Positions 5,810 through 16,291 of a stretch of 64,000 bases of DNA are shown one piece after another. This stretch comes from Georgenia yuyongxinii. Lineage in GTDB: Bacteria > Actinomycetota > Actinomycetes > Actinomycetales > Actinomycetaceae. The DNA is taken from positions 1,798,001 through 1,862,000 of the forward strand of contig NZ_CP040915.1 of the NCBI RefSeq assembly GCF_006352065.1, in the 5' to 3' direction. Position 1 is the stretch's first letter. Every line of letters begins with the position of its first letter. The notes under the pieces were generated by a model that did not search any database, was not told the origin of the DNA, and saw only the letters and a program-made list of their open reading frames with translations. The position numbers were made by a program, and so were the translations under genes.

Positions 5810-6274
5810 ATGCCGGACATCCTCCTGCGCGCGGCGGTGATCGCCGTGGTCCTCGCTGTGGCCAGCGGCCTGTGGTTGCTGCGGGAGCGCCGCCGTGGCC
5901 AGCTGCGCCCGGTCCGCGCCGGCACTGCGGCGGACTCCCTGACGCTCGCCCGTGTTCGTGCCGCCGTCGGCCCGCTACTGGATCCCGGCGCCCGGGCCAC
6001 GCTCGTCCAGCTCTCCAGCGAGACGTGCACACCCTGCCGGCAAAGCGCGCGCACCTGGTCGAGCCTCACGCCTCACCACCCTGGCGTGAACTTCCTCGAG
6101 ATCGACGCCGCTGAGCACCTCGACCTCGCCCGGGCGTTCGACGTGCTCCGCACCCCGACCACCCTCGTGTTCGACGCGGCCGGCACAGCCGTCGGCCGCG
6201 TCCTCGGACCGCCCACCCCGTCCCAGGCCAGGGAGATCCTGGCCGGCCTCCACCCGATCCCGGAGTACCGATGA
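5810..6274 (+). CDS. Membrane-anchored thioredoxin-like protein
   Basis: 154 residues. One N-terminal hydrophobic segment (about residues 4-24, LLRAAVIAVVLAVASGLWLL) would anchor it in the membrane. A thioredoxin fold follows with the redox motif CTPC inside QLSSETCTPCRQSAR, and the cis-proline region TPTTLVFDAAG. It probably exchanges disulfides with a partner near the membrane. The stop overlaps the start of the next gene (ATGA), so it is translationally coupled to the DUF4395 membrane protein. Thioredoxin-like/DUF4395 pairs occur in many actinobacteria; the partner substrate is unknown. Confidence 0.8.
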   Translation: MPDILLRAAVIAVVLAVASGLWLLRERRRGQLRPVRAGTAADSLTLARVRAAVGPLLDPGARATLVQLSSETCTPCRQSARTWSSLTPHHPGVNFLEIDAAEHLDLARAFDVLRTPTTLVFDAAGTAVGRVLGPPTPSQAREILAGLHPIPEYR

Positions 6275-6723
6275 CCGCCGAAACCACCGCCCGCACGACC
6301 GGCATCGACCCCCGCGGACCGCGCTTCGGTGCCGCGGTCACCAGCGTGCTTCTCGTCGTCGTCATCCTCCTCGGGCAGACACCGACCGCCACGATCCTGC
6401 TCGTCGTCGTCACCGCGTCTTTCGCGCTGGGAGCGGTACGTGGCACCCAGGGCACCTGGCAGGGCTGGCTCTTCCGGACTCTTGTCCGCCCGCGACTGGC
6501 GCCACCGGCCGAGCTCGAGGACCAGGCGCCGCCGCGGTTCGCGCAGCTCGTGGGGCTGGTCGTCACGGGCATCGGTCTCGCCCTGGCGCTGGCCGGTCTC
6601 GGGTGGGCCCTGCCGGTGTTCGCCGGTGTCGCACTCGTCGCGGCATTCCTCAACGCGGCCTTCGGCTTCTGCCTCGGCTGCGAGCTGTATGTGGTCGGAC
6701 GGCGGCTCGTCGCCGCCCGCTGA
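6271..6723 (+). CDS. DUF4395 integral membrane protein
   Basis: 150 residues with about four hydrophobic helices. The start TGIDPRGPRFGAAVT and the C-terminal AAFGFCLGCELY with a CLGC pair are typical of DUF4395. It overlaps the thioredoxin-like gene by 4 bp, and the conserved CxxC at the membrane suggests that the two proteins form a thiol relay. That relay is inference; no member of the family has, to my knowledge, an established function. Confidence 0.8.
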   Translation: MTAETTARTTGIDPRGPRFGAAVTSVLLVVVILLGQTPTATILLVVVTASFALGAVRGTQGTWQGWLFRTLVRPRLAPPAELEDQAPPRFAQLVGLVVTGIGLALALAGLGWALPVFAGVALVAAFLNAAFGFCLGCELYVVGRRLVAAR

Positions 6724-6912
6724 CGGTCAGGGCCGACGGCCAAGACGGCGCTCCATGGCATCTCCTCGTGCAGCTGCAGACGGGACGACGTCCCTGCCCC
6801 TCGGCAGCGGTGATCCGCGGTACGTGGACCCGTCCCAAAGGCCTCCCAAGCCGCCCGCCCGTACTTACTCTGGAACGCGACAGCCAACGTCGTCATCGGT
6901 CGAGGGGGTGCC

Positions 6913-7584
6913 GTGACAACTCGTCTCAGGCTCGCCGCGCTGTGCGCGGCAGCGCTCGTGCTGACCGGATGCGGTGCGGTGATCACCAGCCCTGATCAGG
7001 TGACGCCGGAGGTGTACGTCGAGCAACCGTCCGTCTCCCCGGCCGCTGCCAAACGTTTCGGCGACGACAAGGCCGAGCAGGCCTATCAGGAGGTCACCAC
7101 GTTCGCCCTCGAGCAGGCGTTCCCGGAGGCGTTCCTCGACCCCGCCAAGAAGACGTACACCGCGGCGGAGCTGACGGCGGGTGTCGCACCGCATCTGACG
7201 CCGACGGCGGCACAGGGCTGGTCCTCGCTCGTGACCTTGGCGCTGGCCGGGGACGCCGACGCCCAGGACTCCCTGCGGATCCTGCAGTTCTACAACGTGG
7301 ACTTGCCCGGCTCGGAGCTCCCGCCAGACGGTGACGTGCTCGTCCGGCAGCAGATCACCGACGCCACGGTCGACGTCGAGGAGCCGTCCGGCGACAGCCC
7401 GGAGCGGCTGCTCGTCTCCTTCAGGCACGAGGCGGTGCTCACTTACGCCGAGGCGGGCCGGCCGTACGAGCTCGACGTCACCAAGACGATGTCCTACTGG
7501 CTCTCACCTGCCGGCGCGAACGCCGGTTCGACCTGGCTCATCGCGTCCTACGACGGCTGGATGGACGTCGCCGTCGACAGTTAG
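6913..7584 (+). CDS. Predicted lipoprotein of unknown function
   Basis: 223 residues. The signal peptide MTTRLRLAALCAAALVLTGC ends in a lipobox, LTGC, so the protein should be lipid-anchored outside the membrane. The rest is a soluble mixed alpha/beta domain without a family I recognise; it contains many Glu/Asp residues and a C-terminal TMSYWLSPAG segment. The GTG start at 6913 is chosen because it begins the signal peptide; a GAGGGGGTGCC stretch just upstream can act as ribosome site. TACTCT at about 6877 may be the -10. It converges with the M1 peptidase gene, with only 20 bp between the stops. Confidence 0.7.
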   Translation: MTTRLRLAALCAAALVLTGCGAVITSPDQVTPEVYVEQPSVSPAAAKRFGDDKAEQAYQEVTTFALEQAFPEAFLDPAKKTYTAAELTAGVAPHLTPTAAQGWSSLVTLALAGDADAQDSLRILQFYNVDLPGSELPPDGDVLVRQQITDATVDVEEPSGDSPERLLVSFRHEAVLTYAEAGRPYELDVTKTMSYWLSPAGANAGSTWLIASYDGWMDVAVDS

Positions 7585-7604
7585 CACGGCGGACGCTCGG
7601 CGCC

Positions 7605-9122
7605 TCACCGTTCCAGCGCACCGGCGTCCTTCAGCACCTCGATCACCTCGGGAAGGTCGGCGAAGGCCTCGACGACGTCCTCGGGTGTGGCGACCGAATG
7701 CGCGTTGGCGCGAATGTACGAGCGGAGCGCGTCGTCGAACGCATCGGCGCCGACGGCCCGGCGGGCCTCGATGAGGGCGTCCGTGCCGGCCACGTAGACG
7801 CCTTGGATGTAGGCGTTGCCGGGCCGGTCGAACTGCTCCGCCCAGAACGACATCGGCCGGCCGACGTCACCCAGCACCAGGCGCGGCACGTCCCCGGACG
7901 GCGCCGGGTCCCGGTCCCGGTCGTCGGCCACGACCTGCACGAACGAGGCGAAGGACTCGTCGAGCCACGGGTCACGACCCTGGTTGTTGCCCACGAGACC
8001 GTAGAACCACATGTGGGCGACCTCATGGGTGACCAGCCAGCCGTCCCTGCGGGGGTTGGTGTCCCTGAACTGGACGGCCCCGGGAAACTCGACGCCGTCT
8101 GCGGTGTCGGGCAGCACGCTGACCCACAGGTCGTCGTACGGCATCGGTCCCAGCAGGGCGCTGACCCTTTCCACGGAGCCCGCCAGTTCCTCCGCCCACC
8201 GCTGGGGCGTAGAGCGGATGCCGATGGTCGGTGCACCGACGTGGACCGTCACGTCGCCGACGGTGTACTGGATGACGTCGAGCCGGCCCACCGTCACCGT
8301 GACGTCCCGAACCGCGGGAGCGGTGAACCGGTGGATGGTGGTGCCCGGGTCCTCACCGTCCGTGGTGCCGACAAGCTCGCCGGCGCCCAGCACGTCGTAC
8401 TCCGACGGCGCCGTCACCTCCAGCGACCGCAGCTCGAAGTCCTCACTGGTGGCCGTCTCGCCGGAGACCGGTACGGCGTCGTCCCGCGCCCACCCGACAC
8501 CCCGCTCCCAGGCGAGCATCGGGTACGCGGATCCAAACCACGCGACCTCGTCCTCGGGCGTGACACCGACCCGCTCGCCGGAGTCCTCACCGAACGTGAG
8601 GGTGAAACCGAGGTCGACGTCGATCGGCGTGGCGGCGTCGACGCAGCCCGGCAGCTGCACCTCGATGAGCGTGCCCGGCGATCCCTCCGGCGCCCCCGCC
8701 GGGGACACTTCGGCCACGGCCGGCGCCCCGTCCACGCTGACCGCGTCCATCACCAGCGCGTTGCCGGCCGCCGCGATGGAGGGGTTGTTCGGCCACGCCC
8801 GGAACACCAGCTCGCACACGTCGAGGTCCGGGGTGAACCGCACCCGCTCCTGCCCGACGGCGGAGCGCAGGTCCGTGGCGACCGTGAAGCTCAGGTCCAT
8901 CACGGGTCGTGAGGGGTCAGGTGCGGGCCAGGACGCGGCACCGGACGCCGTCGCCTCGGGCCGTTCCTCGCCCGGGCGCACCGGGCCGGACGACCCGTCG
9001 GCCCCGCTCCGGCTGGGCGCCCCACTGCCGGACGCCCCGCCGCCGGGCGCGTCCGTTCCCGTGCACGCCGAGAGCGCCAGCAGCGCCGTGACGACGGCGG
9101 CCGAGAGCGTTCGGCGCCTCAT
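7605..9122 (-). CDS. M1-family metallopeptidase lipoprotein (last gene of the NRPS operon)
   Basis: 505 residues. The N-terminus MRRRTLSAAVV...LLALSAC is a lipoprotein signal with lipobox LSAC, followed by a Gly/Ser-rich spacer. The body resembles the M1 aminopeptidase fold: the zinc motif HEVAHMWFYGLVG with a downstream ligand Glu in WLDESFASF. The substrate-binding GAMEN loop is not obvious, so peptidase activity is likely but its specificity is open. ATG 9122 is preferred over the upstream start at 9152 because it begins the signal peptide and has TAACGT 7 nt before it, so the gene may also have its own leaderless promoter. It lies 40 bp after the phosphopantetheinyl transferase gene and may act on the secreted product. 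Confidence 0.8.
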   Translation of the reverse strand: MRRRTLSAAVVTALLALSACTGTDAPGGGASGSGAPSRSGADGSSGPVRPGEERPEATASGAASWPAPDPSRPVMDLSFTVATDLRSAVGQERVRFTPDLDVCELVFRAWPNNPSIAAAGNALVMDAVSVDGAPAVAEVSPAGAPEGSPGTLIEVQLPGCVDAATPIDVDLGFTLTFGEDSGERVGVTPEDEVAWFGSAYPMLAWERGVGWARDDAVPVSGETATSEDFELRSLEVTAPSEYDVLGAGELVGTTDGEDPGTTIHRFTAPAVRDVTVTVGRLDVIQYTVGDVTVHVGAPTIGIRSTPQRWAEELAGSVERVSALLGPMPYDDLWVSVLPDTADGVEFPGAVQFRDTNPRRDGWLVTHEVAHMWFYGLVGNNQGRDPWLDESFASFVQVVADDRDRDPAPSGDVPRLVLGDVGRPMSFWAEQFDRPGNAYIQGVYVAGTDALIEARRAVGADAFDDALRSYIRANAHSVATPEDVVEAFADLPEVIEVLKDAGALER

Positions 9123-9129
9123 CGCGCCA

Positions 9130-9135
9130 ACGTTA
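9130..9135 (-). promoter_or_regulatory. -10 element (TAACGT) for the M1 lipoprotein gene
   Basis: On the minus strand TAACGT is followed by 7 nt and ATG 9122. It would give the last operon gene a separate leaderless transcript. Confidence 0.5.
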
Positions 9136-9162
9136 GCGATCACGTCCCACATGCACCGTGGG

Positions 9163-9945
9163 TCAGGCCGTCCGGGCGTGCGCGACGTTCCCCGCCGACG
9201 ACGCGAGGAGGGCGTCGCCGTCGTGCTCGACGACGGTCAGGGGGCCCGGGCCCATGACGGCGACGCTGGCGACGAACGCCGGGCTCGGGTGCAGGTCTGC
9301 CAGCGTCACCGCGGGCGGTGGCGCAGGCCCGGGCCAGGTGAGCAGTGCCGCAGGCAGTTTCGGGCCGGTGACCTGGATCGTCTCAGGCGGAACCGCGAGG
9401 CCCTCCCCGGTCGCCTTGAGAACGGCCTCCTTGCGTGTCCACCACACCGCGAGCGCCGCCCGCCGCGCCGTCGCCGGCAGCTCGCCGAGCTCGCCGAGCT
9501 CGGCGGTGCTCAGCAGCCCGGCGGCGTCCTGATCGGTCAGCCGGGCCAAAGCCTCCACGTCCACGCCGACCGGCGGACCGGTGCTGACCGCCACGACCAC
9601 CTGCCCGGCGGTGTGGGCGAGGCTGAACTCCACGGCAGCCGGTCCCGGAAGCCGGGGCTTGCCGTGGTCCCCGCCGCACCGCGGGCAGGTGGTGTCCAGC
9701 CGCAGCTCGTGCGGCGCGACCCCCACGGCCGGCGCGAGGAGCAGCCGGAGGAGCGCACGGGCCGTGACGAAGCCTGCCCGCGCCCCCCCGACCAGGCGTG
9801 CCGCGCGGCGCCGCTCGACCGGCTCGAGCAGCCGGGTGAGTGCGGGCAGTCCCGCGGGCCCGGCCGGGCCATCGTGCGGACCCTGGCTGTGGTGCCGACC
9901 GGTCGTCGACGGCGTCGCCCACCACACGTCGCACCGCACGCTCAT
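9163..9945 (-). CDS. Sfp-type 4'-phosphopantetheinyl transferase
   Basis: 260 residues. It transfers the phosphopantetheine arm of CoA to a carrier-protein serine. The family motifs are present: GVDVEALARL (Mg-binding Asp and Glu) and WWTRKEAVLKATGEGL (KEA...K). An upstream CPRCGGDHGKPRL segment matches the region before the PPTase fold in Sfp/EntD-like enzymes. ATG 9945 overlaps the stop of the preceding gene (ATGA), so translation is coupled. Its obvious substrate is the carrier domain of the large synthetase three genes upstream, which needs this activation. Confidence 0.9.
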   Translation of the reverse strand: MSVRCDVWWATPSTTGRHHSQGPHDGPAGPAGLPALTRLLEPVERRRAARLVGGARAGFVTARALLRLLLAPAVGVAPHELRLDTTCPRCGGDHGKPRLPGPAAVEFSLAHTAGQVVVAVSTGPPVGVDVEALARLTDQDAAGLLSTAELGELGELPATARRAALAVWWTRKEAVLKATGEGLAVPPETIQVTGPKLPAALLTWPGPAPPPAVTLADLHPSPAFVASVAVMGPGPLTVVEHDGDALLASSAGNVAHARTA

Positions 9946-10607
9946 GCCGCCATCACCCGATCGAGCAGGTCCAGCCCGAGGTCGGTGGCCGCCCGCCGGG
10001 GCGGGCGCAGCCCGACGTCGGTGAACCAGTCGGCCGTCGCCTCGGGGTGGGGACCGACCACCCCGACCACCCCGTGGCCGAACCGGGTGACCACCGCGGC
10101 GGGCAGCCCGTTGTCGTACTGGGCGACCACCTCGGCGCTGCCGCGAGCGGGGTCGAGCACGAAGTAGGGCCCGTCCTGGAAGTAGACCTCGCGGCGAAGC
10201 CCGCCCCACCGCACCCGGAGGACCGCGTCCCCGTCCGAGGTCACGGTCGCGCCGGGCGACTCGATGTACCGGTCCGTGTCCCCGGGCAGCAGGCCGAAAC
10301 CGGGCGTCTCGCCGGCCAGGTACGCGCCGAGGCAGAACCCGAGGTAGCGGCCGCCGCCGGCCACGTACTCGCGGACCGCTCGGGCACGACGGCGGAGCCG
10401 GCGGTACGCCGGGCCCAGCTCACCGCCGCCGGGCTGGGCGTACAGCGCTGCACCGCCGAGCACGTCCGGCGTGAGGGGCAGCTCCTCCCGGGGCCCCACG
10501 AACCGCACGTCGAAGTCCCAGCGGGAGGTGCGCAGCAGCCCGGCGACGGCCTCGGGACACCCCGGTGACGACGCCGGCCCCCGGTATACCAGCGCGCGGG
10601 CGGCCAT
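9942..10607 (-). CDS. BPL_N-like class I amidotransferase-fold protein
   Basis: 221 residues. It has the fold of the N-terminal domain of eukaryotic biotin-protein ligase (BPL_N), a class I glutamine amidotransferase relative: YRGPASSPGC at the start, the nucleophile elbow YLGFCLGAYLAG, and VGPHPEAT giving a His-x-Glu pair. Cys, His and Glu are therefore all where a catalytic triad would be. No fused ligase domain exists. Reaction unknown. It starts 3 bp after the membrane acyltransferase-like gene and overlaps the PPTase gene by 4 bp, so it is an integral operon member; a role in amidating, releasing or trimming the peptide product is conjecture. Confidence 0.75.
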   Translation of the reverse strand: MAARALVYRGPASSPGCPEAVAGLLRTSRWDFDVRFVGPREELPLTPDVLGGAALYAQPGGGELGPAYRRLRRRARAVREYVAGGGRYLGFCLGAYLAGETPGFGLLPGDTDRYIESPGATVTSDGDAVLRVRWGGLRREVYFQDGPYFVLDPARGSAEVVAQYDNGLPAAVVTRFGHGVVGVVGPHPEATADWFTDVGLRPPRRAATDLGLDLLDRVMAA

Positions 10608-10610
10608 GGG

Positions 10611-12155
10611 TCAGCCCGAGGTCGTCGGACGGCGGGTCTCGGTCCCTGCGGCGAACGAGACGGCGGCCGGCGGAGCAGCGGCGGAGGGCACCCCCGCGGG
10701 TACCCCGGCGAGGTGTGCCTTGCGTGGCCGGGCGTGCATCGGGGGACGGGCGAGCCGACCACGTCGCACCGCGCCCCTCGAGCCGGTTCCCGTCGGGCCC
10801 CCGCCGCTCGGTGCGCCGTCGCCCCGGCCTCGGCCGAGGACCAGGTTGCGCGTGAGCCGCGTGGCCCACCACACCACTGCTTCGAGCGGACCGCGGCCCA
10901 GCCACTTGGCCCACAGCATCGCGAACACGACGAACCCGACCACCTGAACGGCGTAGTCCAGTCCCTCGTTCTCGGGCATGAACCCGGCACCGAGCAGGAG
11001 CAGGTGCGCGACGTACAGCGTCAGCGTCATGCTGCCGGCCTTGGCGAGCGGCGCGAGGGGTGCCCACGCCACCCGGCCGAGCAGGATCGCCAGACCGATC
11101 ACTGCCAGCGAGACGCCCATCGTGAAGAGCAGGTCCACCGGTGTGGTCGTGTGCGGCGCCATGACACCCAGCCACCACGGGCTCGTCGTCGGCAGGGTGC
11201 CGTCCCCGCCCCACACCATCAGGTCGGTGTACTGCTCGAGCGGCATCGTGGCCAGCGCGACCGGCTCGAGCGCAGCCCGGCCGCCTAGCTGGACCATGGC
11301 GAACCATGAGGCGCCCGCAGCGGCCACGGCCAGCACCAGCCCGGCGAACGTCATCCGGATGACCACGCCGCGGGAGGACAGCCGCGAGCGGCCCACCGCC
11401 ATCCCGAGGGCCAGGTACGCCACCCACGGCAGCGCTGGGTATACCCCGGTGAGCGACAGGCGAACCAGCTCCGCGGCCGGATCGGCGACGAGCTCGGCGA
11501 AGGTCGGGTTGGCCAACGGCGGGACCGGCAGGTCGCCGCGCAGCAGGTGGCTGACGACCGGGATGAAGACGGCGGCGAGCAGCGCGAGCACCGCGAGGGC
11601 CCTCGGCGAGAGGCGTAGCAGCGGGATAGCGAGAACAAAGAGCACGGCATAGAACGGCAGGATCACGCGGGCGTCGTCGTAGTTCACGAGCGGCCCGACC
11701 AGCAGCCCGATCGCGCCGATGAGCAGCGCCCGGACGACCAGCGAGACCCCGGCCGCCACCAGGCGGCGGCCCCCGGGGCGGCGTTCCCGACCGGTCATGA
11801 ACGCGATGCCCACACCGGCGACGACGGCGAACAGCGCCGCCGACTTCCCTGAGGAGAGGATCCACGGCAGCGACATGTTGCCGTCGTCGGTCGCCGGGTC
11901 GAAGATGTGCACCGCCATCATCCCGAGCAGCGCGACGCCACGGGCCACGTCGACCCCGATGAGGCGGGCGGCGGACCGCTGCGGCGCCGGCGCGGAGGTG
12001 TCGGGGGGCGCCGGGACGCAGTCGTGCGGGATGTCGACCGCGGGCGGGGGCCACGCGAGGTCGACGGGACCAGGCGTGGACAGCACCGCCGTCTCGGTTC
12101 CGGCGGACCGGGCCGGCGCGAGCGCGGTGCTTCCCGGCGGGTGGGGTGCGTTCAC
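10611..12155 (-). CDS. Multi-pass membrane protein, HGSNAT/DUF1624-DUF418 type
   Basis: 514 residues. A Pro/Ala-rich tail of about 65 residues precedes some ten hydrophobic helices. The first helix, RLIGVDVARGVALLGMMAVH, carries the Arg/Asp/Arg and MxxH pattern of the heparan-glucosaminide N-acetyltransferase-like family, where a His in the membrane accepts an acyl group. The C-terminal helices (LTLYVAHLLLLG, FAMLWAKWLGRGPLE) look like DUF418. An acyl- or amino-transfer reaction across the membrane, or a transport role, is possible. GTG 12155 overlaps the synthetase stop (GTGA). A C-terminal basic tail of about 60 residues is cytoplasmic or disordered. Confidence 0.75.
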   Translation of the reverse strand: MNAPHPPGSTALAPARSAGTETAVLSTPGPVDLAWPPPAVDIPHDCVPAPPDTSAPAPQRSAARLIGVDVARGVALLGMMAVHIFDPATDDGNMSLPWILSSGKSAALFAVVAGVGIAFMTGRERRPGGRRLVAAGVSLVVRALLIGAIGLLVGPLVNYDDARVILPFYAVLFVLAIPLLRLSPRALAVLALLAAVFIPVVSHLLRGDLPVPPLANPTFAELVADPAAELVRLSLTGVYPALPWVAYLALGMAVGRSRLSSRGVVIRMTFAGLVLAVAAAGASWFAMVQLGGRAALEPVALATMPLEQYTDLMVWGGDGTLPTTSPWWLGVMAPHTTTPVDLLFTMGVSLAVIGLAILLGRVAWAPLAPLAKAGSMTLTLYVAHLLLLGAGFMPENEGLDYAVQVVGFVVFAMLWAKWLGRGPLEAVVWWATRLTRNLVLGRGRGDGAPSGGGPTGTGSRGAVRRGRLARPPMHARPRKAHLAGVPAGVPSAAAPPAAVSFAAGTETRRPTTSG

Positions 12156-15100
12156 TGTGTCTCCTGCGTCGGGTCGACTCGCGTCGGGTCAGGCTGCGGC
12201 TGCGCGGGCACCAGCTGCCCGGCCGGCGGTTGCGTGTGCGGCGTACGGTCGGGCTGCACCCGGGCCGGGTGCTGCGTGGTCTGGGCGGGGATGCCCCGCC
12301 AGGCGGTTCCCGGTTCGAGCCGTTCGCCCTTCATCACCAGCGAGAGCGGGGCGAGATAGGCGTCGGCGCCCACCGCGGAGTCGTAGAGCACGATCGATCG
12401 GGTGCCCACCGTCGAGCGGGCGCCGATGTCGATCGTCGACATCTTCATGACCCGGTCCTCGAACAGGTGGGTCTGCAGCGAGGCGTGCGGGCCCACGACG
12501 GCGTCGTCCCCGATGCGGACGAGGTCGAACTCGGTGGTGTAGGTGGTGGAGATCAAGGTGCGGCGGCCGGCCTTCACGCCGAACAGCCGCAGCATCGGTC
12601 CGAGCAGGGGCGTACCGGTCAGGATGTCCAGCAGCGCGGGGACCGCGGCCGCCTCGTAGATGCCGGTGACGAACTCCGTGCGCCGCACGAAGGAGCTCCA
12701 CAGCGGCTCCACCCGCCGGACGTACCGCCCCACCACGACCCACTTCAGGGCGGCGACGGCGAGCACCACGCCGAGGCTGGCGGTCAGCGCCAGCACGGGG
12801 GTGGCCAGGACGGTGACGACCGTGGGGGCCGCGCCGGCCACGAAGGACAGCGCGTAGAGGGTGGCGAAGGTCGACAGGGAGAGGATCGACGCGGGCAGCG
12901 TCATCCGGAAGAACTCGATGACGTAGCGGTTGCGCACCTGCCGGCGGCTGGGACGGAACGTCTGTGCCTCGGTGAACTCGTCGTACATCTCCCGGCGCGG
13001 CAGGAAGATCGGCGGCGAGCCCAGCCAGCTCGTGCCCGGCGGCACGCCGCCCACCGGGGGCACCGACAGCACGCCCACCAGGGAGCCGTCGCCCAGGTGG
13101 ATCCCCGACGGCACGTAGGACGCGTTGCCCACGAAGGTGCGGGTGCCCACGTCCGTGGCCCGGAAGGCGACGTGGCCGTTGGCGTAGGACGCGGCGCCGA
13201 CGCTGGCCATGTCCGCCACGAAGCTGTCGTCCTCGAGGGTGAGCAGGTCCGGGTCGATGTTGGCGATGGTGGAGACCTCCGCGCCGCGGCCCACCCTCGC
13301 CCCGAGGGCACGCAGCCACATGGGGGTGTACAGCGTGGAGTACATGGTGTTGTTCAGGTCCAGGCTGAGCTCGAGCAGCTTGTCGCCGAACCACTTCTCC
13401 ATGCCGAGCTGGGAGCGCAGGTGGTGCACGCCTACCGGCGTGGCGGGCAGCGCCAGGCGCCGCACCCCGAGGATGAGCACGCAGGAGGTCGCCACGAACA
13501 GCGGGCCGCAGCAGGCGGTGACCACCAGGGCGGCGACCTCGCCGCTGGTGAGCAGCGTCCACCAGACCAGCACGACGATCGGGACGAGCGCCGCCAGCGG
13601 CATCAGCTCGAGGACGGCCAGGCCGACGGCGAAGCCCGGCAGGAGCCGCCGCGGCCAGGCCCGCGGGGCCTCCTGGCACTGGGCCATCAGCTCGAGCACG
13701 GGGTCGCCCGCGGACGGCAGCACCCGGGCCGGGGAGCCGGCCCAGGTCTCGCCGTCGGGCACGTGCTGCCCGGCCTCGAGCAGCGTCTGCTCGCGCAGGA
13801 TGGCGTGCGCGCCCACCTCGCACGGTCCCTCGAGGACGGTGTTCGCCCCGACGACGGCGTCCCGGCCGACCGCCAGGTGCCCGATCGTCAGCACCCCGTC
13901 GTCGAGGTGGCTGGCGTTGAGGTGCGCGGCGTACCCCACGGTCGCGCCGTCGCCGAGATAGATGAACCGCGGCAGCGAGATCTGCGCGGTGCCGATGTGG
14001 CACGCCTCGCCGATCCGGGCGCCGCCCAGGCGCAGGTACGCGGCTGCCCACGGCGAGCCGGAGAGCATGTTCAGCGGCGAGAGCGTCATGGCCTTCTCGG
14101 CCGCCCAGACCCGCAGGTGCACGTGCCCCCACAGCGGGTAGGTGCCCTCCCGCAGCCCCAGGGTGAACAGGCGCACGGCGACCAGGGGGAGGAGCCAGCG
14201 CCCGATGAGGTAGGACACCGGGAAGGTCAGCACCAGCTGCTCGATCATCGCCACGGACGGGATGCCGTCGTTGATGGCGTAGACGAGCCCGATCGGGAGC
14301 ATGAACACCACGAGCATCGTGTAGACCCACGCGAGCTGGGTGCTGCCGAACAGCATCACCCGCCACCGGCGTGGCGGCGTGGGTCGGGCGGCGGCGGTGG
14401 GCTCCGTCCGGCCGGCGGCGTCGCGCTCGAGGAGGATCTCGTCCTGCCGCTGGGCGAGGGCGCGGACGGTGGGGTGGGCGTACAGGTCGAGGATGGACAG
14501 GCCGGAGTCGGCGAGGTCGGCCCGCAGCCGCGAGACCACGGTGGCCGCGAGCAGGGAGTGGCCGCCCAGGTCGTCGAAGAAGTCCGCCTCGACGGACACC
14601 GAGCCGGGGGACAGCCGCAGGACCTCCTCCCACGCCGCCGCGATCCGTTCCTCGGTGGGGGTGGCGGCGGGCACGTGCCCGCCCCCGCCCATGAGGCGGG
14701 GACTGCTGGGCTCCGGGAGGCTCTTGCGGTCGACCTTCCCGCTGGGCAGCATCGGGACCGCGTCGAGCACCTCGAGATAGGCGGGAACCATGTACGCAGG
14801 GAGCCTGCGCCGCGCCGTCGCGTGGAGGCGGCCGACGACGTCGTCGGTGCGGGGTGCGTCGTCCGTGAGCAGCACATAGCCGGCCAGCTCGCCGCCGCTG
14901 CCGGCCGTGGTGAGCAGCTTGACGACGGCGACGGCGACGTCCTCGTCCTCGATCAGGACGTTCTCGATCTCCTGCAGGTCCGCCCGGTGCCCGCGGATCT
15001 TCACCTCGCTGTCGGCGCGTCCGAGGTACTCGATCTCGCCGTCGGGCAGGATCCGGCCGAGGTCGCCGGTGCGGTACAGGCGTTCACCGGCCCGCCCGTC

Positions 15101-16291
15101 GGGGTCGGGGATGAACCGGTCAGCGGTGAGGTCGGGCCGGTTGACGTACCCGCGCGCGACACCGGGCCCGCCCACGCAGATCTCGCCGACCTCGCCGTCG
15201 GGCACGGGGTGGCGGTCCTCGTCGAGCAGGACGACCGAGTACGTGGGCAGCGCGCGGCCGATCGTGACGGGCCGGCCCACCTCGAGCTCGGCCCACGTGC
15301 ACGTCACCGTGGTCTCGGTAGGTCCGTAGGTGTTGAGGATGCGCCGGCCGGTCCCGCCCCAGCGCTCCACCAGCTCGGGTGGGCAGGCCTCGCCGCCGAC
15401 GTTGACGGTGCGGATGGCCGGCGGCGTGCGGTCGAGAGTCGCCAGGACCGTCGGGACGCAGTAGAGCATGGTGATCGCCGCGTCCTCGAGGAAGTCGGCG
15501 AGCCCGGTGCCGATGCGGCGGGCGTCCGTGGGCCCGGCGACGACCGTGGCACCCACGGCCCACGTGGGCCAGATCTCCTCGATGGAGAAGTCGAAGGCGA
15601 TGGTCATGCCCTGGTAGACGCGGTCGGACGGCATGACGCCGTACACCTGCGGGACCACGCTGAGGAAGTTGCAGATGCTGGACTGGCAGACCTCCACGCC
15701 CTTGGGCCGGCCGCTCGACCCGGAGGTGTAGATGATGTAGCAGACCGGGTCCCCCGACGCCTCGATGCGGGGCCGGTCCGCCGCGGCGCCGCGCACCTGG
15801 GCCGCGACCGTCTCCACGGCCAGCACCCGCGCCTCCAACCCGGCGCAGACCGCGGTCAGGGCGCCGGTGGTGAGCATCAGGTCGATACCGGAGTCCTCCG
15901 CGATGAAGGCCACGCGGTCCGCCGGCGAGGCGGGGTCGATGGGCACCAGGGTGGCCGAGGCCTTCAGCGCCGCCAGGAACGCGACGTACATCTCGGTCGA
16001 GCGCGGCAGGAGCAGTCCCACCCGCGACCCAGGGGCCAGGCCGTCACCGAGGAGGTGGTTCGCCAGCTGGTTGGCCCGTCGGTCGAGCTCGGCGTAGGAC
16101 AGGCTCTCGCCATCGCACTCGAGGGCGACGGCGCCCGGCCGTTCGTCCACGGTGTGCTCGAAGACGTGCTGCATCCGGGCGTGCACCGGCCCGGGGCTGA
16201 ACGTCCGTGCGGCGGGGGCGCGGGCCGTGCCGGGCTGCTCTGCACCGACGGTGCCTGGTGTGCTGGTCGCTGCTGGTCGCAGGTCCGTCAC
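12152..16291 (-). CDS. Pls/PosA-type NRPS-like poly-amino acid synthetase
   Basis: 1379 residues. The adenylation domain (about 40-530) has core motifs YIIYTSGSSGRPKG (185-198), FDFSIEEIW (233-241), NTYGPTETT (320-328), YRTGDLGR and a C-terminal PSGKVDRKSL with the catalytic Lys. A carrier domain follows with DDLGGHSLL (Ser 579). There is no condensation or thioesterase domain. Instead residues 645-1379 alternate transmembrane segments (about 650-710, 885-950, 1150-1220) with three left-handed beta-helix (hexapeptide-repeat) regions. This is the layout of Pls, the epsilon-poly-lysine synthetase, and of the Pls/PosA family. It should activate an amino acid and polymerise it at the membrane. 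GTG 16291 has GGGAGG at 6 nt. It heads a five-gene operon. Confidence 0.88.
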   Translation of the reverse strand: MTDLRPAATSTPGTVGAEQPGTARAPAARTFSPGPVHARMQHVFEHTVDERPGAVALECDGESLSYAELDRRANQLANHLLGDGLAPGSRVGLLLPRSTEMYVAFLAALKASATLVPIDPASPADRVAFIAEDSGIDLMLTTGALTAVCAGLEARVLAVETVAAQVRGAAADRPRIEASGDPVCYIIYTSGSSGRPKGVEVCQSSICNFLSVVPQVYGVMPSDRVYQGMTIAFDFSIEEIWPTWAVGATVVAGPTDARRIGTGLADFLEDAAITMLYCVPTVLATLDRTPPAIRTVNVGGEACPPELVERWGGTGRRILNTYGPTETTVTCTWAELEVGRPVTIGRALPTYSVVLLDEDRHPVPDGEVGEICVGGPGVARGYVNRPDLTADRFIPDPDGRAGERLYRTGDLGRILPDGEIEYLGRADSEVKIRGHRADLQEIENVLIEDEDVAVAVVKLLTTAGSGGELAGYVLLTDDAPRTDDVVGRLHATARRRLPAYMVPAYLEVLDAVPMLPSGKVDRKSLPEPSSPRLMGGGGHVPAATPTEERIAAAWEEVLRLSPGSVSVEADFFDDLGGHSLLAATVVSRLRADLADSGLSILDLYAHPTVRALAQRQDEILLERDAAGRTEPTAAARPTPPRRWRVMLFGSTQLAWVYTMLVVFMLPIGLVYAINDGIPSVAMIEQLVLTFPVSYLIGRWLLPLVAVRLFTLGLREGTYPLWGHVHLRVWAAEKAMTLSPLNMLSGSPWAAAYLRLGGARIGEACHIGTAQISLPRFIYLGDGATVGYAAHLNASHLDDGVLTIGHLAVGRDAVVGANTVLEGPCEVGAHAILREQTLLEAGQHVPDGETWAGSPARVLPSAGDPVLELMAQCQEAPRAWPRRLLPGFAVGLAVLELMPLAALVPIVVLVWWTLLTSGEVAALVVTACCGPLFVATSCVLILGVRRLALPATPVGVHHLRSQLGMEKWFGDKLLELSLDLNNTMYSTLYTPMWLRALGARVGRGAEVSTIANIDPDLLTLEDDSFVADMASVGAASYANGHVAFRATDVGTRTFVGNASYVPSGIHLGDGSLVGVLSVPPVGGVPPGTSWLGSPPIFLPRREMYDEFTEAQTFRPSRRQVRNRYVIEFFRMTLPASILSLSTFATLYALSFVAGAAPTVVTVLATPVLALTASLGVVLAVAALKWVVVGRYVRRVEPLWSSFVRRTEFVTGIYEAAAVPALLDILTGTPLLGPMLRLFGVKAGRRTLISTTYTTEFDLVRIGDDAVVGPHASLQTHLFEDRVMKMSTIDIGARSTVGTRSIVLYDSAVGADAYLAPLSLVMKGERLEPGTAWRGIPAQTTQHPARVQPDRTPHTQPPAGQLVPAQPQPDPTRVDPTQETQ

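Follow-up and report, generated by a model that had tools for sequence, protein, structure and literature searches.

A five-gene operon around a Pls/PosA-family synthetase in Georgenia yuyongxinii and its recurring set of candidate helper genes

Results and Discussion

A window of 64,000 nucleotides (nt) from Georgenia yuyongxinii (contig NZ_CP040915.1, positions 1,798,001 to 1,862,000) contains, at its positions 7605-16291, an operon of five minus-strand genes, which fill this interval and are joined by overlaps or by gaps of at most 10 nt. They encode a large synthetase of the Pls/PosA family, a membrane protein of the HGSNAT type, a BPL_N protein, an Sfp-type 4'-phosphopantetheinyl transferase (PPTase) and an M1-family lipoprotein. 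The product is probably a short cationic chain, built from a single small amino acid and then modified and trimmed. The chain-making enzyme is of a known kind; for the set of helpers that recurs around it, the roles of which are proposed below by inference, no description was found in the open-access literature searched.

The synthetase and membrane protein genes overlap in a GTGA, 3 nt separate the latter from the BPL_N gene, the BPL_N stop and the PPTase start overlap in an ATGA, and the PPTase and M1 genes lie 10 nt apart. All five proteins gave Pfam matches above the curated cut-offs (synthetase: AMP-binding 273.7 bits, PP-binding 50.6, Hexapep 43.0; partners: HGSNAT_cat 45.2 against a cut-off of 22, BPL_N 54.6 against 24.2, ACPS 48.9 against 25, Peptidase_M1 46.1). 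The original prediction of a five-gene minus-strand cluster is thus borne out by sequence and Pfam in its genes, its place and its tight junctions. Its further claim, that the synthetase belongs to the Pls/PosA family, was confirmed as well: the C-terminal half (residues 657-1336) scores 535.9 bits against TIGR02353 (cut-off 423.1) and was not placed in another family.

The synthetase contains single copies of the A domain (residues ~44-530) and the T domain (548-614, with DDLGGHSL at residue 573; PF00501, PF13193, PF00550), and the Pfam scan returned no match to a classical condensation or thioesterase domain. Judged by hydropathy only, the protein fits the layout of Pls/PosA enzymes, in which six membrane helices separate three soluble tandem domains: three clusters of membrane segments (645-704, 891-940 and 1134-1187) separate three soluble parts. 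A hexapeptide repeat exceeds the cut-off in the first soluble part only (808-837), that in the second (1048-1073) scoring 21.1 against 27. In a FastTree phylogeny of 90 rows, some of whose long branches were flagged, the window protein groups first with Georgenia (supports 96 and 100), and the next to join are Agilicoccus and Geodermatophilaceae (100). Outside the 81-row window clade stand a cyanobacterial row and those of three loci with dat and ask genes (L094, L111 and L113); the Lys type forms the outgroup. The window synthetase is an ordinary representative of a known family, from a subfamily that has been less studied. Several synthetase-like fragments, apparently in pieces, were seen on one short contig (L095, G008).

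Recurrence of the partner genes

The partners were sought in 81 loci, namely the window and the best 80 of 396 relatives, a set biased towards close relatives of the window enzyme. Profile searches found BPL_N near the synthetase in 64 loci, the HGSNAT type in 51 and M1 in 30 (31 before removal of L053, in which the M1 gene follows another synthetase, of the Lys type). When only the 62 loci with 6 kb or more on each side are counted, the numbers are 56, 41 and 25, respectively. Common arrangements are synthetase-BPL_N-HGSNAT-exported BPL_N and synthetase-BPL_N-HGSNAT-M1, and near the window also synthetase-HGSNAT-BPL_N. The complete order synthetase-HGSNAT type-BPL_N-PPTase-M1 occurs in three of the 81 loci, the window and two Georgenia loci. 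Synthetases that stand without these partners are found in L028, L040, L042, L059, L063, L074 and others. On a Rhodococcus erythropolis plasmid, RefSeq annotates genes for a synthetase, BPL-N and an HGSNAT-type protein that are linked by 4-nt overlaps. The cluster exceeds chance, since its partner genes are found again next to related synthetases of many genera and overlap in this plasmid. Co-occurrence in other genomes, the lack of which would have counted against the original prediction, was thus found for BPL_N, the HGSNAT type and M1.

Of 393 genomes sampled evenly across the class, 11 contain the BPL_N family (E up to 1e-20) and at least 114 contain TIGR02353, the synthetase counts being lower bounds since at most two candidates were scored per genome. 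In six of these 11 genomes BPL_N lies 36-138 nt from a TIGR02353 match, although one of the six, G601, is the genome of L064 and so overlaps with the 81 loci; in the window genome the two are separated by one gene. In G603 BPL_N is at the start of a contig with only a weak A-domain-like match nearby, and no synthetase was found within the stretch retrieved around BPL_N in G465, G592 and G564. Among 296 genomes of the phylum, TIGR02353 is present in 22, alongside a strong BPL_N match only in the window genome. BPL_N matches at E 0.001 occur in 31 of these 296, and those better than 1e-10 only in the window genome and in G288, a further orphan BPL_N; weaker matches were treated as background. 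L096 (G624), for which the gene caller took the wrong strand, was not used. Taken together, the two samples tie BPL_N to the window subfamily and not to the whole Pls/PosA family.

Table 1. Genes of the operon (window coordinates)
Gene product	Position	Strand	Features
Pls/PosA-family synthetase	12152..16291	-	1379 aa, GTG start, GGGAGG ahead of start
HGSNAT/TmAT-type membrane acyltransferase (predicted)	10611..12155	-	514 aa, PF07786, DxxRx10H residues 69-83
BPL_N protein, class I glutamine-amidotransferase fold (predicted)	9942..10607	-	221 aa, C92-H187-E189 triad
Sfp-type PPTase	9163..9945	-	260 aa, VGVD and WWTRKEAVLK motifs
M1-family metallopeptidase, lipoprotein	7605..9152	-	515 aa, lipobox LSAC, HExxH-x18-E

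A 223-aa lipoprotein-like gene on the plus strand (6913-7584), which gave no NCBIfam match, is convergent with the M1 gene; it is kept at the same place in the Georgenia loci L004 and L005, and weakly in Agilicoccus (L114:3837-4604).

Helper proteins

In the membrane protein, DVARGVALLGMMAVH at residue 69 provides a DxxR motif followed by His (DxxRx10H), and D69, R72 and H83 are invariant across 25 sequences. DxxR is the motif of the TmAT superfamily (PMC12423673), whose members transfer acyl groups across the membrane from cytosolic acyl-CoA. Eight of the ten best PDB matches of the predicted fold (E 3e-4 to 3e-3) bear the title human HGSNAT, the remaining two just "membrane proteins"; matches ranked after these are other proteins with low probability. 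Pfam, the motif and the predicted fold, the latter two shared with human HGSNAT, agree in assigning the protein to the HGSNAT type of the TmAT superfamily as a predicted member. A related HGSNAT-type gene follows dat-ask in L111 and adjoins the dat-ask cluster in L113. L111 (Streptomyces celluloflavus, the genome with L048) carries at 6031-14355 a synthetase, then dat, ask and the HGSNAT-type gene, and an M1 gene at 2-1204. Distant synthetases were seen on a Sphingomonas plasmid (L118), with a PPTase and a soluble GNAT acetyltransferase in 4-nt gene overlaps, and on a Skermanella plasmid (L119), with ectB just upstream. Given the HGSNAT-type genes of L111 and L113 and the GNAT gene at the Sphingomonas synthetase, acetylation of the product may be a recurring possibility.

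The match of the second partner to BPL_N (PF09825) is limited to model positions 3-98 of 283. Its predicted model (predicted local distance difference test, pLDDT, 97.1) has the class I glutamine amidotransferase fold with a Cys-His-Glu triad, and the nearest folds are the glutaminase subunits Pdx2 and HisH. The triad is kept in 87 of 88 members, the sole one without the Cys being a gene cut short by the gene caller. No signal peptide was seen in the window protein, which is a putative cytosolic polymer hydrolase. Export-like members, identified by a rough rule based on hydropathy and RR that was applied to the starts set by a simple gene caller, occur in 22 loci, as an extra copy in 21 and as the only copy in L079. 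In the BPL_N tree an exported clade of 25 rows includes three rows called cytosolic, and the export-like L069_14660 and L079_8559 stand outside it. Export-like BPL_N and M1 occur together in none of the 81 loci (Fisher p 4.8e-6, uncorrected).

PPTases activate carrier domains. That of the window carries the WxxxKExxxK motif of the Sfp type, and no NCBIfam model was above its cut-off for this protein. The HExxH and the third ligand of the zinc site of the M1 protein (HExxH-x18-E) are 100% conserved in 35 sequences. GAMEN, the substrate motif of classical M1 aminopeptidases, was not seen when the sequence of the lipoprotein was read by eye; the corresponding stretch is DGVEFPGA, the Glu of which is also 100% conserved in the 35 sequences. 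A pls-coupled aminopeptidase, PldII, degrades epsilon-polylysine (PMC9223678, PMC8117764). The earlier statement that the accessory set has no assigned roles therefore holds for the BPL_N and HGSNAT-type proteins, for which the literature searched yielded no assigned role, but not for the peptidase, with its PldII precedent, nor for the PPTase.

Synthetase-M1 adjacency is the known pls-pldII arrangement (PMC8117764, PMC9223678). Like the pls-pldII loci of Streptomyces albulus and coryneforms, the window combines an A-T-tandem membrane synthetase with an M1-type peptidase gene in the neighbourhood, but its pocket has Phe instead of Ala, its M1 gene is fifth and not directly coupled, and HGSNAT-type, BPL_N and PPTase genes are added. 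Elsewhere in the window genome, at C1:3747028, lies another synthetase (L001), which is of the Lys type and at the stop of which an M1 gene begins. This locus (L112:7223-12498; C1, about 3.745-3.750 Mb), with a PPTase gene nearby, is of the classical pls-pldII type.

Pocket code

Pocket positions of the A domains were set by motif anchors on a MAFFT alignment, and the code style was compared with a code printed in PMC10522769. The window code is DFEYNGTVTK. D-F-E occupies the first three positions in 81 of 84 aligned synthetases, the others being the window genome's paralogue L001 (DAESIGTVIK) and two neighbouring synthetases in other loci, L053_15159 (DAESIGTVVK) and L040_1048 (DALLVGGIMK). 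Asp and Glu are present at positions 1 and 3 of the window code and, as far as sequence can tell, may serve as the amine-binding pair, PosA D217 and E221 being the Asp/Glu that bind the two amines; Phe at position 2 is associated with poly-2,3-diaminopropionate (DAP) and poly-2,4-diaminobutyrate (Dab) enzymes (PMC10522769). The epsilon-polylysine (Lys) subtype was ruled out for the window enzyme, position 2 being Phe and not Ala. Of the earlier likeness to epsilon-polylysine synthetase, family and architecture stand, but not the Lys subtype.

The gamma-poly-Dab system pldA-dat-ask belongs to a related branch: the L094 protein is 46.6% identical to that of the window and also has Phe at position 2, and L111 and L113 share with the window an HGSNAT-type gene, as described above. 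However, these proteins lie outside the window clade, no BPL_N was seen in L094, L111 or L113, and the L094 code DFECLSAVTK differs at 3/10 positions from the commonest clade code DFEYLGTVTK and at 4/10 from the window code. A gamma-poly-Dab cluster was ruled out by gene content, since neither dat nor ask is among the five genes of the operon.

Proposed pathway

On balance we favour, by a modest degree, the view that the operon produces a cationic homopolymer, in which units of a short diamino acid (DAP, ornithine or Dab) are joined by isopeptide bonds, and finishes it at the membrane. The PPTase would arm the T domain, the A domain would activate the diamino acid, and the membrane-embedded C-terminal domains would couple the units in an iterative fashion and move the chain to the outside. 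The HGSNAT-type protein could then carry acetyl (or another acyl) from cytosolic acyl-CoA through the membrane to the amines of the emerging chain. The BPL_N protein would act as a thiol hydrolase of the class I amidotransferase fold, cleaving chain left in the cytosol, and the M1 lipoprotein would trim chain outside. Making, modifying and trimming of a cationic homopolymer at the cell surface, as the original prediction had it, fits what is directly observed here, namely the gene content, family membership, motifs, predicted folds and co-occurrence; the product, its substrate, acetylation and hydrolysis, and the direction of export are proposals on that basis.

Several observations weigh against this proposal. 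No product is known for the operon. BPL_N was not found in 17 of the 81 loci, six of which have 6 kb or more on each side, and the co-occurrence is weaker for the PPTase, of which the same family is present in 13 loci but lies inside the apparent operon in only 3 of 81. The likeness to the HGSNAT fold is moderate (template modelling score about 0.40), the usual acceptors of TmAT proteins are carbohydrates (PMC12423673), whereas here they would be polymer amines, and in L094, the third dat-ask locus, no HGSNAT-type gene was found in its 16 kb. For the mutual exclusion of export-like BPL_N and M1, an independent-pairs test on the tree was not significant (median p 1), so that its basis is the raw counts from loci that are related to one another. 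The substrate signals conflict: the window genome gave no match to Dat at E 1e-100 and none to SbnA above the cut-off (236.8 against 349.95), and SbnA above the cut-off and Dat are both missing in 4 of 14 genomes tested. DAP supply via SbnA was therefore ruled out at the cut-off, and an enzyme below threshold or import may take its place.

Monomer and rival explanations

A serious possibility, though one that falls short of probable, is that the synthetase is an orthologue of PDAPs of Streptomyces albulus, which would make the operon a beta-poly-DAP locus supplemented by further helpers. In S. albulus, polylysine and poly-DAP come from two enzymes of such layout; strain PD-1 carries, besides Pls, a PDAPs gene of 4338 bp with that layout (PMC4668381), which resembles the window gene in length and likewise has the pocket Phe (PMC10522769). 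In each of three Streptomyces genomes with window-clade loci (L049, L050 and L065), TIGR02353 finds exactly two synthetases at E 1e-80, including that of the window clade. In the two genomes compared with the epsilon-poly-L-lysine synthase 7WEW, the other synthetase matches it over the whole A domain (L121 of the L049 genome, 1010 bits; L123 of the L050 genome, 988 bits). Since two-synthetase genomes with a 7WEW-like partner resemble the complement of S. albulus, the window clade may be the PDAPs group. This orthology is, however, derived indirectly, from the two-synthetase complement of the three genomes and the 7WEW matches of two, and the kinship of those strains with S. albulus from the same matches; the lack of SbnA above its cut-off in the window genome also argues against it, and the part of PMC4668381 consulted mentions no helper genes.

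L-ornithine as the monomer, giving delta-polyornithine as from PosA of Acinetobacter baumannii, is rather unlikely. A gene of the dimethylargininase/arginine dihydrolase superfamily lies near the synthetase in 14 of the 81 loci, and the best solved relatives of the one compared, the L017 protein, are AgrE/ArgZ (E 7e-31, against 5e-8 for dimethylargininase), named arginine dihydrolases by NCBIfam. In Geodermatophilus, the end of an argB-like kinase gene meets the synthetase start in L010 (5519-6778), and another ends ~240 nt before the synthetase in L008 (3580-4566), their argB identity being judged by eye on a Pfam call of AA_kinase. PosA, whose gene forms an operon by itself (PMC10522769), shares family and architecture with the window enzyme, and its pocket code DMEHNGTVSK (PMC10522769) differs at 3/10 positions, with Met, His and Ser where the window has Phe, Tyr and Thr; moreover, ornithine requires no dedicated supply genes, which suits the genomes without SbnA and Dat. 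Yet shorter substrates are indicated by the Phe that takes the place of Met at position 2 (PMC10522769), and the window has neither the dimethylargininase/dihydrolase-like nor the argB-like gene. NCBIfam favours dimethylargininase, which makes citrulline, over arginine dihydrolase for the L017 protein (200.1 against 140.2 bits, both below cut-off), which makes ornithine less likely. As ornithine is the amine donor for DAP in S. albulus (PMC4668381), its supply fits DAP too, and the linked genes hint at ornithine either as monomer or, by analogy with S. albulus, as amine donor. DAP is thus the leading candidate at somewhat below even probability, ornithine comes after it, and the remainder falls to Dab and others. 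The argB-like genes of L010 and L008 adjoin a GNAT gene, that of L010 being the second such gene in its locus.

Other explanations concern the helpers. The synthetase could add one or a few amino acids to a lipid, glycan or teichoic acid, with the HGSNAT-type protein acetylating the conjugate, as would suit the usual action of TmAT proteins on carbohydrates (PMC12423673). This we consider very improbable, given that the characterised synthetases of such layout listed in PMC10522769 make homopolymers and that no glycan or lipid gene was seen recurring in the operons (the joint Pfam scan covered 41 of the 66 further genes of apparent operons, and some were scanned singly). BPL_N might instead be a genuine amidotransferase subunit or a scaffold without activity, and no polymer hydrolase, as its closest folds Pdx2 and HisH might suggest, but this is unlikely: the triad is retained almost throughout, no partner synthase was recognised among the recurring operon genes scanned together, and export-like and orphan secreted-looking members exist. 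In view of the same members, an ammonia-donor role of BPL_N was judged unlikely. A bolder version of the homopolymer proposal, which we put forward tentatively and with some doubt, is that the short-diamino-acid branch uses a conserved, hitherto undescribed finishing system of a transmembrane acetyltransferase and a new family of Cys-His-Glu isopeptidases with an amidotransferase fold. The acetyltransferase might then cap or partly neutralise the emerging chain, and the isopeptidase might be a cytosolic guard, often with an exported twin where the M1 peptidase is missing.

Conclusions

Release, length limitation and protection of the producer are open questions for these polymers; for PDAPs, PMC4668381 gives peptide release and the origin of the mass distribution as still to be determined. 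The acyltransferase and the two kinds of hydrolase that recur beside the synthetase are concrete and testable candidates for these steps. If the chains are acetylated, searches for free cationic polymers could miss them, which might help to account for the many predicted loci that have been linked to no product. Should the branch indeed possess a conserved finishing system, its products would be acetylated oligomers of set length and charge.

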